A stretch of 51,288 nucleotides of DNA, from the NCBI GenBank assembly GCA_947587025.1, contig CANPXW010000007.1:1-51288 (forward strand), read 5' to 3'. The notes below the pieces were generated by a model, which was given only the letters and a program-made list of their open reading frames with translations, did not search any database and was not told the DNA's origin. Numbering within the stretch: position 1 is the first letter of the stretch; each line of letters begins with the position of its first letter. Shown piece by piece: positions 21,056 through 39,461 of this stretch. This stretch comes from an uncultured Oscillospiraceae bacterium. GTDB lineage: Bacteria; Bacillota; Clostridia; Oscillospirales; Oscillospiraceae. The translations under genes were made by a program, and so were the position numbers.

Positions 21056-21565
21056 GTGAGCGACGACGAGCTGGTGGAGCGGATACGGCAGGGCGACGAG
21101 GACGCCGCCGGGGAGCTGGTGCGCCGCTGGTACGGTCCCATCCTGCGGTACTGCCGGCGCATGTGCGGCAGCGCCGACAGGGCGGAGGACCTGACCCAGG
21201 AGACGTTTTTGAAGCTGTTCCGGTCCCTGGACCGATACCATGGCCGGGGCAAATTCCGGGCGTTCCTCTATACCATCGCGGACCGGCTGTGCATCGACGA
21301 GAGCCGCAGGCTGCGGCAGTACCCCCTGGAGGAACAGCTGCCGGACGAGAGCAACGCCATCGGCCAGGCGGAGGACAGGGCGGAGGCGGACAGGCTCATG
21401 GCGGCCCTCAGTCCGGAGCAGCGAAGGGCGGTGGCGCTGCGGTACGGCGAGCAGCTGAGCTACCGCGAGATCGCGGCGGTGACGGGCTGCACGCTGCGCA
21501 CGGCCCAGAGCCGGGTCCGGTGCGCGCTGAAGATCATGCGGGAGGTGTACGGCAATGAAAAATGA
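21056..21565 (+). CDS. ECF sigma factor, cassette 1
   Basis: The 169-residue protein has region 2 ([19 protein letters not shown], then [19 protein letters not shown]) and region 4 ([19 protein letters not shown] with [19 protein letters not shown]), and nothing like region 3, as in extracytoplasmic-function sigma factors. I chose the GTG at 21056, which has AAAGGGGG nine bases upstream; this puts the conserved [12 protein letters not shown] at the N-terminus, whereas the longer frame from 20948 adds unrelated residues. The gene overlaps the next membrane-protein gene by 11 bases. It is the first gene of a sigma / membrane protein / ATPase / permease cassette that is repeated at 36141-39461. 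It probably directs transcription of its own operon. Confidence 0.9.
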
Positions 21566-22310
21566 CGAACTGGAGGCGCTGCTGCGCTCCTCGCTGGGAA
21601 GCATGCCAGCGCCAAAGCGGATGGAGCAGACGGCGGTGCTGTGCGCGCAGATCGTGGGCCAGCGGCCCCGGACGGAGCCGCAGCTGGGCTTTTGGGGCTT
21701 CCTGTCAGAGATATTCCGCTTCGAGGGCGGTCTTATCCTGGCATGCCAGGCGGCGGCGCTGCTGCTGGTCGGGCTGCACGTGTACGGCGCGGCGGACCAT
21801 CTTCAGACGCTGCCGGCCTATATCCCGCTGTTCGCGCTGGCGGTCATGCCCGCCCTGTTCCGGGGCCGCTACCGGGGCGTGAGCGAGCTGGAGGCGGCCA
21901 CGCGGGCCTCCGCAGCCCAGCTGACGCTGGCAAAGCTGGTCCTGGCGGGGGGCGCGGACCTGGTGTGCATGACCTTGCTGCTGGCGCTGCAGGCGCGCAT
22001 GGCCGGCTCCTGCCGGCAGATGGGGCGGATGATCCTCTACTGCCTGGTGCCATACCTGGCCTGCATGAGCGTCACCCTGGCCGTCATCCGCCGGCGTGGG
22101 CGGGACGGCATGGCCATGAGCGCGGCCTTGGCGCTGGGCTCCTGCCTTTTCTGGTACGGCTCGGCAAAGCTCTGCCCGAGACTATACGAGATACCAGCCG
22201 TAGGCGTGTGGCTGGCCGCGTTCATGCTGTTCGCAGCGTTTTTCGTCCGGGAGATATACTTCATCATCCGTGCGAATAGGGAGGGAAGGATATATGGAAC
22301 TTACGCTTGA
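21555..22310 (+). CDS. Six-helix membrane protein, cassette 1 (candidate anti-sigma factor)
   Basis: I do not recognise a named family. The 251-residue protein has a soluble N-terminal part of about 50 residues ([20 protein letters not shown]), then the motif FWGFLSEIFRFEGG, then about six hydrophobic helices separated by short basic loops. Segments shared with the protein at 36682-37392 include VSELEAATRAS (VSEVEAATRTS there) and YCLVPYLACM (YCLVPYLTCM there). Its gene overlaps the ECF sigma gene and also the ATPase gene, the usual place of an anti-sigma factor. A cytoplasmic N-terminus that holds the sigma factor, with the membrane part sensing an envelope signal or the transporter's state, is a hypothesis. 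No zinc-finger anti-sigma motif (HxxxCxxC) is seen. Confidence 0.75.
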   Translation: MKNDELEALLRSSLGSMPAPKRMEQTAVLCAQIVGQRPRTEPQLGFWGFLSEIFRFEGGLILACQAAALLLVGLHVYGAADHLQTLPAYIPLFALAVMPALFRGRYRGVSELEAATRASAAQLTLAKLVLAGGADLVCMTLLLALQARMAGSCRQMGRMILYCLVPYLACMSVTLAVIRRRGRDGMAMSAALALGSCLFWYGSAKLCPRLYEIPAVGVWLAAFMLFAAFFVREIYFIIRANREGRIYGTYA

Positions 22311-23163
22311 CCGGCTGACGAAGCACTACGGCAGGAAGATCGCTGTGGACTGCGTCAGCGCCAGACTGGGCCCGGGCGTATACGGCCTACTGGGGGCCAA
22401 CGGCGCGGGCAAGACCACGCTGATGCGCATGCTGTGCGCCATTTTGGAGCCTACCTCCGGCCAGGTGTTCTGGGACGGGGAGGACACGGCCGCCATGGGC
22501 GCGGCCTACCGCACCGTGCTGGGGTATCTGCCCCAGGACTTCGGGTACTACCCGGGCTATACCGCGTCGGAATTTCTGGCGTACATCGCCGCCCTCAAGG
22601 GCATCCCCCGCAGCATCGCTGCCGGGCGGGTGCGCCAGCTTCTGCGCACTGTGGGGCTGCAGGGCGCGGCGGACAGAAAGCTGCGCACCTTCTCCGGGGG
22701 CATGAAGCAGCGGGTGGGCATCGCCCAGGCGCTTTTGAACGACCCGCAGATACTCATCCTGGACGAGCCCACGGCGGGGCTGGACCCCAAGGAGCGGGTG
22801 CACCTGAGAAATCTGCTGGCGGACTATGCCGGGGACCGCATCGTGATACTGTCCACACACATCGTGTCGGACGTGGAGGCCATCGCGGACCGGGTGTTCG
22901 TGATGAAGGACGGGAAATTCATCCTCCGGGGCACGGTGCCGGAGCTTGTGCGCCAGGCGGAGGGGAAGGTGTGGGAGCTCTCTGTCCCGGCGGACCGGGT
23001 CAGGGCCTGGCAGGAGGACTTCACGGTGGTCAATCTGCGCCACGAGGGAGACCGGGCGGTGCTGCGCCTGGTGGCGGACAGCCGGCCGGACGGACACGCC
23101 GTGCCCTGCACGCCCACCATGGAGGATCTGTATCTCTATCATTTCGGCGCGGAGGAGGCGTGA
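22294..23163 (+). CDS. ABC transporter ATP-binding protein, cassette 1
   Basis: The 289-residue ATPase has Walker A LLGANGAGKTTLMRML, Q-loop LPQDFGYYPGY, signature FSGGMKQRVGIAQAL, Walker B ILILDEPTAGLDP and switch His in STHIVSDVEAIAD. The C-terminal 70 residues after the nucleotide-binding core are of the kind found in BcrA/drug-resistance type exporters. It is the same length as its paralogue at 37376-38245, and most motif regions are identical. I chose the ATG at 22294 because of the GGGAGGGAAGGA ribosome site and the match of MELTLDRLTKHYG with the paralogue's MELSIDRLTKHYG. It pairs with the permease that follows by one base. Confidence 0.93.
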   Translation: MELTLDRLTKHYGRKIAVDCVSARLGPGVYGLLGANGAGKTTLMRMLCAILEPTSGQVFWDGEDTAAMGAAYRTVLGYLPQDFGYYPGYTASEFLAYIAALKGIPRSIAAGRVRQLLRTVGLQGAADRKLRTFSGGMKQRVGIAQALLNDPQILILDEPTAGLDPKERVHLRNLLADYAGDRIVILSTHIVSDVEAIADRVFVMKDGKFILRGTVPELVRQAEGKVWELSVPADRVRAWQEDFTVVNLRHEGDRAVLRLVADSRPDGHAVPCTPTMEDLYLYHFGAEEA

Positions 23164-38245: not shown

Positions 38246-38246
38246 C

Positions 38247-39461
38247 ATGGAACTTTTCGCATTGGAACACAAGAGACTTTGGCGGACGCCCCGTGTGTGG
38301 ATCTGTGTGCTGCTGTGCTTTGCCTACAGCGTCATATGGGGGACCCTATTCCAGTATCAGTGGCTGGGCTTCGGCACTCAGCATGACACCACCGACCCAT
38401 ATGATTTCAGCTTTGACGGCTATTCCAACATACGGGGATTTCAGGAGCAGTTTTCCCAGTTCGGCGACGAATGGACGGACGAGACGTTCCAAAAGATGGT
38501 AGCGGCGTATCAGAGCTATGACATTTATGAAAAGCCGGGCCTTCAATCAATGGGGGACTGGATAGTGGCATACTCGTTTCTTGACAGGCTGTACCCGGAG
38601 CTGGAGGACGCGGAGAACCAGAAGTATCAGCCACTGATCCTCTACGCGGACACGTCAAAAATAACGGACTTTTACCAGCGGCGGGCGGACCTCTTGGAGT
38701 TCACCCTGGAAGTCACCAAACAAAACGAGGGACTGACCGATGCCGACAAGCAGATGCTCCTGGATATGAACAGCCAGATCGAGGAGCCCTGGCCCTACGA
38801 GTGGACACAGGGCTGGGCCAACCTGCCCTTTAACTGGTCGAAGCTGGCGCCCTACCTGGCCATTGCGCTGGCGTTCCTGTTCTCCGGGGAGTGGCACAAC
38901 AGCACCGCGCCCATGCTGCACACCACCAAATACGGCTGGAGGAAGCTGGCCCGTGTAAAGGTCCTCAGCGGCCTTGCATTCGCGCTGGAGTTCTATGTGC
39001 TCATCGCGGGCTCTAAGATACTGCTGCAGCTCATATATTTTGGCACGTCCGGGTGGGACCTGCCGATACAATACATCAGCCTGCTGGCCGTGGCCCCCTG
39101 GAACATGCTCCAGGCGGAGCTTTATGAGCTGGCCTTCGGCCTGATCGGCGTGGTAGGCTACGCAGGGCTGGTCATGCTCATGTCGTCCCTGGTGAAGAAC
39201 AATGTGCTGGCCCTGGTCTTCAGCCTGGCCTTCGTCTACGTGCCGGACGTACTTGAGCGCTACCTGCCCAAATGGCTGATGGCGGTGAGCCAGTACCTGC
39301 CGCTGGTGGGCAATAGCCGCGACATCTACGGCTACAACATATTCCACATCTTCGGCCTGAGCGTCTGGTCGCCCTGGATGATGATAACGGTGCCGCTGCT
39401 GATTGGCATAGCGTGCATCCCCTTCGCCATCCGCTTCTGGTCCCGCCGCCAGAGGGCATGA
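38247..39461 (+). CDS. ABC transporter permease, cassette 2
   Basis: The 404-residue protein begins MELFALEHKRLWRTPRVWIC, almost the same as its paralogue in cassette 1. One N-terminal helix is followed by an outer domain of about 150 residues, which is the most different part between the two copies, and then five helices (LAIALAFLFSGEWHN; LLAVAPWNMLQAELYELAFG; VWSPWMMITVPLLIGIACI). Divergence in the outer domain with conserved membrane parts suggests the two transporters meet different ligands. It starts one base after the ATPase stop with GAAGGAGG upstream, and a terminator follows. Confidence 0.85.
   Translation: MELFALEHKRLWRTPRVWICVLLCFAYSVIWGTLFQYQWLGFGTQHDTTDPYDFSFDGYSNIRGFQEQFSQFGDEWTDETFQKMVAAYQSYDIYEKPGLQSMGDWIVAYSFLDRLYPELEDAENQKYQPLILYADTSKITDFYQRRADLLEFTLEVTKQNEGLTDADKQMLLDMNSQIEEPWPYEWTQGWANLPFNWSKLAPYLAIALAFLFSGEWHNSTAPMLHTTKYGWRKLARVKVLSGLAFALEFYVLIAGSKILLQLIYFGTSGWDLPIQYISLLAVAPWNMLQAELYELAFGLIGVVGYAGLVMLMSSLVKNNVLALVFSLAFVYVPDVLERYLPKWLMAVSQYLPLVGNSRDIYGYNIFHIFGLSVWSPWMMITVPLLIGIACIPFAIRFWSRRQRA

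Follow-up and report, generated by a model that had tools for sequence, protein, structure and literature searches.

ECF sigma factor and ABC transporter cassettes of a rabbit-gut Oscillospiraceae genus, with a candidate anti-sigma tail on a predicted exporter subunit

In Bacillus subtilis, the SigY/yxlCDEFG operon combines an extracytoplasmic function (ECF) sigma factor, one or more membrane regulators, and the ATPase and permease of an ATP-binding cassette (ABC) transporter, and the SigY regulon is small and self-centred. Separate small genes for regulators or anti-sigma factors follow the sigma gene in this operon. Bce-type modules pair an ABC transporter that has an FtsX-type permease with a histidine kinase; the transporter is the sensor that controls its own synthesis, through a two-component relay. 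The accessible part of PMC10141391 contains nothing on the regulators of SigY, and among the open PubMed Central (PMC) matches listed no paper is, by its title, on the sigY operon itself. Here, two four-gene cassettes are described in a 51,288-nucleotide stretch of DNA from an uncultured Oscillospiraceae bacterium (GenBank GCA_947587025.1, contig CANPXW010000007.1). This stretch, referred to as the window, is the entire contig C7 of a 2.32 Mb genome in 154 contigs with a completeness of 80%. Each cassette encodes, in this order, an ECF sigma factor, a six-helix membrane protein, an ABC ATPase, and a permease with an outer domain. Comparison among relatives shows a conserved gene order, a seam within the six-helix gene, promoter-like motifs that are scarce elsewhere, and exchanges between sigma and transporter types. 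With modest confidence, we lean toward a reading in which a subunit of the ABC exporter is itself the anti-sigma factor, and in which new sensor-exporter pairs would arise by exchange of a cartridge, made of the sigma factor and the tail that would hold it, at one and the same seam within the permease gene.

The two window cassettes and their family

Sigma factors of the genus fall into three types, A1, A3, and B, found in 9, 16, and 12 of 37 cassettes, respectively. The features of cassette 1 (A1) and cassette 2 (B) are as follows.

20994..21019, plus strand: promoter-like site of the A1-type sigma before cassette 1, ATCATTT-N13-CGTTAT; conserved 5′ of A1 sigma genes, sole match in the source genome, similar element in Lachnospiraceae
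21056..21565, plus strand: cassette 1 ECF sigma factor, type A1, GTG start (Pfam Sigma70_r2 1e-20, Sigma70_r4_2 3e-13)
21555..22310, plus strand: cassette 1 six-helix gene, whole
21555..21689, plus strand: its N-terminal ~45 residues, a predicted two-helix anti-sigma-like segment (AlphaFold2 helices; distances follow sigma; nearest neighbour of the same sigma type in 37/37)
21690..22310, plus strand: its membrane part, a predicted ABC-2 permease half without outer domain
22294..23163, plus strand: cassette 1 ABC ATPase, 289 aa from ATG (PF00005 3e-32)
23165..24388, plus strand: cassette 1 ABC-2 permease with a mostly helical outer domain of ~145 residues
36096..36125, plus strand: promoter-like site of the B-type sigma before cassette 2, TGCAACGA-N15-CGAATAT; sole match in the source genome
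36141..36689, plus strand: cassette 2 ECF sigma factor, type B, GTG start (Sigma70_r2 6e-17; r4_2 just below its cut-off)
36682..37392, plus strand: cassette 2 six-helix gene, whole
36682..36771, plus strand: its short (30-residue) type-B N-terminal segment; the short form goes with the type-B sigma
36772..37392, plus strand: its membrane part, from the alignment of family members
37376..38245, plus strand: cassette 2 ABC ATPase, 289 aa (PF00005 8e-34)
38247..39461, plus strand: cassette 2 ABC-2 permease with outer domain (48% identity to that of cassette 1)

The coordinates bear out a preliminary description of the window in that both cassettes have the same four genes in the same order and ATPases of 289 aa. 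The "same overlaps" that it claimed are found at two of the junctions, with a 17 nt overlap of six-helix and ATPase genes and a 1 nt gap between ATPase and permease, but not at the third, where sigma and six-helix genes, with no gene between them, overlap by 11 nt in the first cassette and by 8 nt in the second. The window sigma factors (169 and 182 aa) have sigma2 and sigma4 domains only by Pfam, which places them in the ECF class (group IV), although the cassette 2 r4_2 score is 25.2 vs. a cut-off of 25.7. Pfam and NCBIfam recognise the sigma factors and ATPases, and neither of the two kinds of membrane protein in the window. The ATPases classify with ABC-2 exporters by PF00005, and their closest NCBIfam models, GldA and DrrA, are below cut-off.

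The resemblance between cassettes 1 and 2 is not due to chance, with BLAST E-values from 1e-15 (sigma) to 4e-162 (ATPase) and local identities of 73% for the ATPase, 48% each for the six-helix protein and permease, and 37% for sigma. As had been noticed at the outset, the ATPases are close (73% identity), and the sigma factors (30%) and the ends of the six-helix proteins (5% of 22 aligned columns over residues 1-40, vs. 48% over 46-251) have drifted; likewise, the permease outer domain (38%, residues 41-185) is more diverged than the membrane parts (57% over 1-40 and 53% over 186-407). Two further cassettes lie on other contigs of the genome, a complete one on C57 and a distant one on C33. The C57 cassette is a mosaic: its sigma factor is 64% identical to that of cassette 1 and 41% (over 87 aa) to that of cassette 2, whereas its six-helix protein, ATPase, and permease are 68, 85, and 66% identical to those of cassette 2 and 48, 71, and 51% to those of cassette 1. 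Accordingly, the window cassettes are not mutual nearest relatives by BLAST or on the ATPase tree. The early expectation that their ATPases would be closest to each other thus failed, although the closer loci are cassettes of the same kind. A recent tandem duplication of the two was rejected by the tree. Rather than paralogues specialized from one another, as first proposed, they are members of a family of 0 to 5 copies per genome in which sigma and transporter halves recombine.

A six-helix profile was searched in 60 genomes, of which 35, the source included, are of the same genus. It matched 40 places in 18 of the 60 genomes, among them 17 of the 35, with 0 to 5 copies each, and gave one weak match in another family of the order. 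The cassette occurs in 16 of the 34 other same-genus genomes; since only 4 of the 13 that are ≥90% complete have it, its presence is patchy. A contig scan added more distant loci: of the best 80 of 87 relatives, 34 are from rabbit-gut "uncultured Oscillospiraceae" metagenome-assembled genomes like the source, and the remaining 46 (hereafter Lachnospiraceae loci) mostly carry the name of Lachnospiraceae or of one of its genera in their titles; Roseburia inulinivorans, R. hominis, R. faecis, and Hungatella hathewayi are among them. When 245 genomes were drawn evenly from the class, source included, two profiles matched 7 and 11 of them.

Sigma lies directly before the six-helix gene in 39/39 same-genus cassettes (the frame is short in L057), and all four genes are in order in the 37/37 not cut by a contig end. 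The order sigma, six-helix, ATPase, permease is kept in 44/46 Lachnospiraceae loci, with an extra permease before the ATPase in L146 and a broken permease frame in L136; the exceptions are L131, which starts at a contig end and has no sigma, and L154, which is rearranged, with its six-helix frame in two pieces and no sigma found. In the class-wide draw, the gene matched is flanked by an ECF sigma immediately upstream and an ABC ATPase immediately downstream in 13/13 places outside the source genome, 12 of them additional, as one (G269:C97) is the contig of L111. The genes are therefore kept together well outside the genus, as the preliminary description had anticipated for relatives. The middle proteins of the distant L080 and L010 are homologous to the six-helix protein over its full length, tail included (hhalign 98.2%, E 6e-14).

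In 8/39 same-genus cassettes, 0.46-1.7 kb is inserted between the six-helix and ATPase genes. A CofE-like gene (F420 ligase family) is located there in L048, L053, L060, L064, and L066; the two tested have a short match to F420-0:gamma-glutamyl ligase, above cut-off in L048 (E 1.7e-7) and below it in L064 (6e-5). A membrane-anchored, weakly NlpC/P60-like protein is inserted in L060, L064, L066, and L067 (sub-threshold in L067, E 0.005), with short forms in L050 and L057; two loci retain only a 96-residue open frame of it. Near the distant C33 cassette, another ECF sigma frame overlaps a downstream frame of 316 aa (L010:8704-10327).

A seam within the six-helix gene

The first ~40 residues of the six-helix protein track the sigma factor and the remainder tracks the ATPase, with the change-over inside the gene, just before the first transmembrane helix (TM1). 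Trees and distances cover 37 of the 39 same-genus cassettes (L052 and L066, at contig ends, were left out, as were L010 and L080, which are too distant; the short L057 sigma frame, 98 aa open, was used as it stands). In 25-column alignment segments before residue ~45, six-helix distances correlate with sigma distances at r 0.68-0.86 and with ATPase distances at 0.21-0.33; from residue ~41 on, the values are 0.08-0.22 and 0.56-0.77. Segments of 12 residues give a tail/sigma r of 0.85 at residues 20-31, 0.33-0.50 over 24-43, and 0.04-0.18 from 44 on, and the ATPase r climbs from about 0.1-0.2 to 0.5-0.6 across the seam. The tail/sigma r of 0.85 was reached in 0/1000 permutations, and the membrane part retains a weak link to sigma (0.18, 3/1000 permutations). 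Within the A types only, r is 0.59 for tail/sigma, 0.19 for tail/ATPase, 0.07 for membrane/sigma, and 0.81 for membrane/ATPase. Furthermore, when neighbours are taken from other genomes, the N-terminal segment is nearest to one of the same sigma type in 37/37 cassettes, compared with 28/37 for the membrane part and 16-29/37 for its 40-column segments.

Tail length follows sigma type as well. Six-helix proteins have 236-238 aa with B, 251-254 with A1, and 253-258 with A3, and the short form accompanies a type-B sigma in 12/12 cassettes and other types in 0/25. In 42 of the 46 Lachnospiraceae loci (L131, L145, L146, and L154 were dropped by script rules, L145 having all four genes in order), no seam was found: the four proteins covary (r 0.68-0.84), and a single, A-like type seems to account for their sigmas and tails. 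The seam is therefore not inherent in the protein, and swapping is not general.

From residue ~43 on, structure prediction indicates an ABC-2 permease fold for the six-helix protein, as it does for the window permease, and the six-helix protein is therefore likely to be one of the two halves of a heterodimeric exporter. At the level of sequence, hhalign of six-helix protein against permease finds no homology (prob 3), and no Pfam ABC2 family is matched by any of 70 six-helix members (68 of 71 reference proteins plus the two from the window; L126, L127, and L129 left out). The corresponding permease set comprises 65 of 70 listed permeases plus the two of the window (L112, L121, L126, L127, and L136 left out). 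Foldseek alone on the six-helix model gave no match at E ≤ 0.001. In the AlphaFold2 models, the tail has helices at residues 4-15 and 19-36, with a confidence score (pLDDT) of 58-69 for the block, and the N-terminus is probably anti-sigma-like. No Pfam anti-sigma family (class I/zf-HC2) is among the matches of the 70 members, for which no dedicated class I model was run. The initial idea that the six-helix protein takes the place of small anti-sigma proteins is corrected accordingly: it is probably a permease half with an anti-sigma-like N-terminus.

Exchange of halves and type-specific motifs

Naming the transporter type by the best-matching window ATPase, all six pairings of three sigma types with two transporter types occur among the same-genus cassettes (A1 4/5, A3 2/14, B 8/4). 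On the ATPase tree, sigma type changes 14 times, where the minimum is 2 and shuffled labels give a mean of 17.1 and a count as low in 10/200, so it is slightly clustered; transporter type changes 8 times on the sigma tree. One clade per sigma type on the ATPase tree is rejected (p 1.3e-39, 9.8e-12, and 1.2e-4). A single co-evolving unit of four proteins was likewise rejected in this genus by mirror correlations and tree tests, and the co-evolution first envisaged holds for the Lachnospiraceae loci.

Individual loci point the same way. Five type-B cassettes are linked by DNA similarity of both flanks and so probably share one chromosomal site, at which L062 has a type-2 transporter and L069, L070, and L076 have a type-1 ATPase and permease. 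L065 has a six-helix protein 96% identical to that of L062, yet a type-1 ATPase and permease. In genome G009, an A1- and a B-sigma cassette share their first 120 ATPase codons at 100% DNA identity, with sigma windows at 39-49%; this shared start may be an assembly artefact. A1 and B sigmas occur at most once per genome and A3 up to three times. These comparisons show that the sigma half and the transporter half recombine within the family. Separately, L059 (A3) and L072 (B) have differing sigma types and flank DNA in common on both sides, as if one site had been refilled.

The promoter-like motifs upstream are specific to the sigma type: TGMAACGR-N15-CGAATAT for B, ATCATTT-N13-CGTTAT for A1, and mostly AATCATTT...CGGTAT for A3. 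An A-like element, AATCATTT...CGTTATTATA, precedes many Lachnospiraceae loci. The B, A1, and Lachnospiraceae patterns were counted genome-wide, in genomes most of which are incomplete; matches at the cassettes are expected by construction, because the patterns were read from these sites, and it is the lack of others that is informative. The B pattern has exactly one site per genome, before sigma, in 12/12 genomes. The A1 pattern is found once in 7/9, twice in G014, and not in G012, whose site deviates. The Lachnospiraceae pattern occurs once each in 7/11 genomes, six times at the cassette and once (G068) elsewhere, and the own sites of the other four deviate from the strict pattern. Reversed-pattern controls gave 0 matches throughout. 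Because their motifs are scarce elsewhere in the genomes searched, the B and A1 sigmas appear devoted to their own operon. The G068 site was rejected as a second target, since what follows it directly is neither a cassette gene nor any other obvious gene. The second A1 site of G014 ends ~30 bp before a VanY plus S11 D,D-carboxypeptidase gene (L173:1477-3588, minus strand); it is a possible second target, and the carboxypeptidase is a hint toward the cell wall.

Two neighbourhoods in the window deserve mention. Just downstream of cassette 1, at 24446-27166, a minus-strand regulator with helix-turn-helix and tetratricopeptide repeats (RNPP C-terminal match) faces a plus-strand ABC exporter (ABC_membrane and ABC_tran); they could be a peptide-signalling pair. 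At 39584-40267, a sigma-70 family gene separates cassette 2 from a nusA-like gene, beyond which comes an infB-like gene.

A proposed control loop, its alternatives, and known systems

In the scheme that we favour, the six-helix half and the outer-domain permease half would form a heterodimeric ABC-2 exporter, both driven by the ATPase. The cytoplasmic N-terminal segment of the six-helix protein would bind its cognate ECF sigma, as minimal two-helix (class II, CnrY-like) anti-sigma factors do; the analogy is with CnrY, whose helix 1 binds sigma4 and helix 2 binds sigma2 according to the accessible part of PMC7406223. Substrate at the outer domain, possibly an envelope-active compound or peptide, or the ATPase cycle, would shift the conformation of the transporter, and the tail would free sigma. 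Freed sigma would transcribe its own operon from a type-specific promoter, for which the motifs are candidates, giving more transporter, and unoccupied transporter would recapture sigma. In the rabbit-gut genus, the cartridge of sigma and tail recombines with the transporter near the tail/TM1 seam, and one switch could therefore be wired to different exporters. We have moderate confidence in this loop, in which the sigma factor would be private to one operon and held by the cytoplasmic tail of an exporter subunit, with transporter state controlling transporter synthesis. The uneven tail/sigma correlation at fine scale counts against it and slightly reduces our confidence.

It is a tentative further proposal, compatible with this loop and extending it, that the cassettes serve bacteriocin or antimicrobial-peptide immunity or export, with the sigma factor for need-based induction and swapping driven by diversifying selection on the substrate. 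The permease outer domain has a mean identity of 0.50, vs. 0.65-0.69 for the membrane parts. This variability, the patchy presence, and the possibly wall-linked genes that are inserted (NlpC/P60, sub-threshold) or co-driven (VanY/S11) would fit such a role, but the best NCBIfam models (GldA, DrrA, and gallidermin-type) are far below their cut-offs. A role in envelope stress or peptide defence is plausible.

For the match between tail and sigma, the chief alternative is plain genetic linkage, in which sigma is controlled by its own transcription or another factor alone and the tail is a mere cytoplasmic extension. The two genes are adjacent and overlap, similarity between cassettes of different sigma type often starts at the FWGFL block, and breakpoints in that block would give the same pattern; in addition, the accessible part of PMC8999054 lists ECF257 sigma factors with ABC transporter genes in their neighbourhood and no known anti-sigma factor. 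We nevertheless consider linkage unlikely as the full account, given that tail length and sequence change wholesale with sigma type, that homology to distant relatives extends over the tail, and that every one of the tails is nearest to a tail of its own sigma type. Equally improbable is a stand-alone multi-pass membrane anti-sigma factor beside a merely co-regulated homodimer of the other permease with two ATPases, since the absence of sequence homology to the permease or Pfam ABC2 families and the known sigma-fused extensions with 3-4 transmembrane helices (ECF36, accessible part of PMC8999054) are set against the predicted ABC-2 fold, a membrane part that moves with the transporter in swaps, and a whole six-helix protein whose covariation with the ATPase (r 0.77) is close to that of the permease (0.80).

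If the proposed loop is right, gut bacteria, Roseburia among them, would have a one-step wire from transporter to RNA polymerase that needs neither a kinase nor regulated proteolysis. The loop would also supply ready-made, probably orthogonal sigma/tail pairs of three types, each with its own promoter-like motif, and make it possible to test directly how an exporter reports its workload. How SigY-like control senses its transporter would then become a simple binding question. Searches of open PMC papers did not find a link between permease and anti-sigma factor in print, and in PADLOC only the window ATPases match (best mad3), with none for the other six cassette proteins.

As the preliminary description recognized, SigY/yxlCDEFG is the nearest parallel: judged by gene order and overlaps, the genes for the ECF sigma, ABC ATPase, and permease form one operon-like run. 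The window sigmas score 90.2 and 58.5 bits, far from the 194-bit cut-off of the SigY model NF007216, and one tailed permease-like protein stands where B. subtilis has small regulator genes. The likeness to ECF257 is one of neighbourhood description. With CnrY-like class II anti-sigma factors the cassettes would share a very short segment, predicted to have two helices, although in the cassettes it forms the N-terminal end of what is predicted to be an ABC-2 permease half. Both membrane subunits have the predicted fold of ABC-2 exporters of the NosY and PmtCD type; the cassette exporter, however, would pair an outer-domain half with a sigma-linked one. Compared with Bce-type modules, no FtsX family is among the matches of the window permeases or 67 relatives, and no two-component gene is among 15 window neighbours scanned. 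The cassette transporter would likewise act as sensor and control its own synthesis, but the permease tail would pass the signal straight to sigma.

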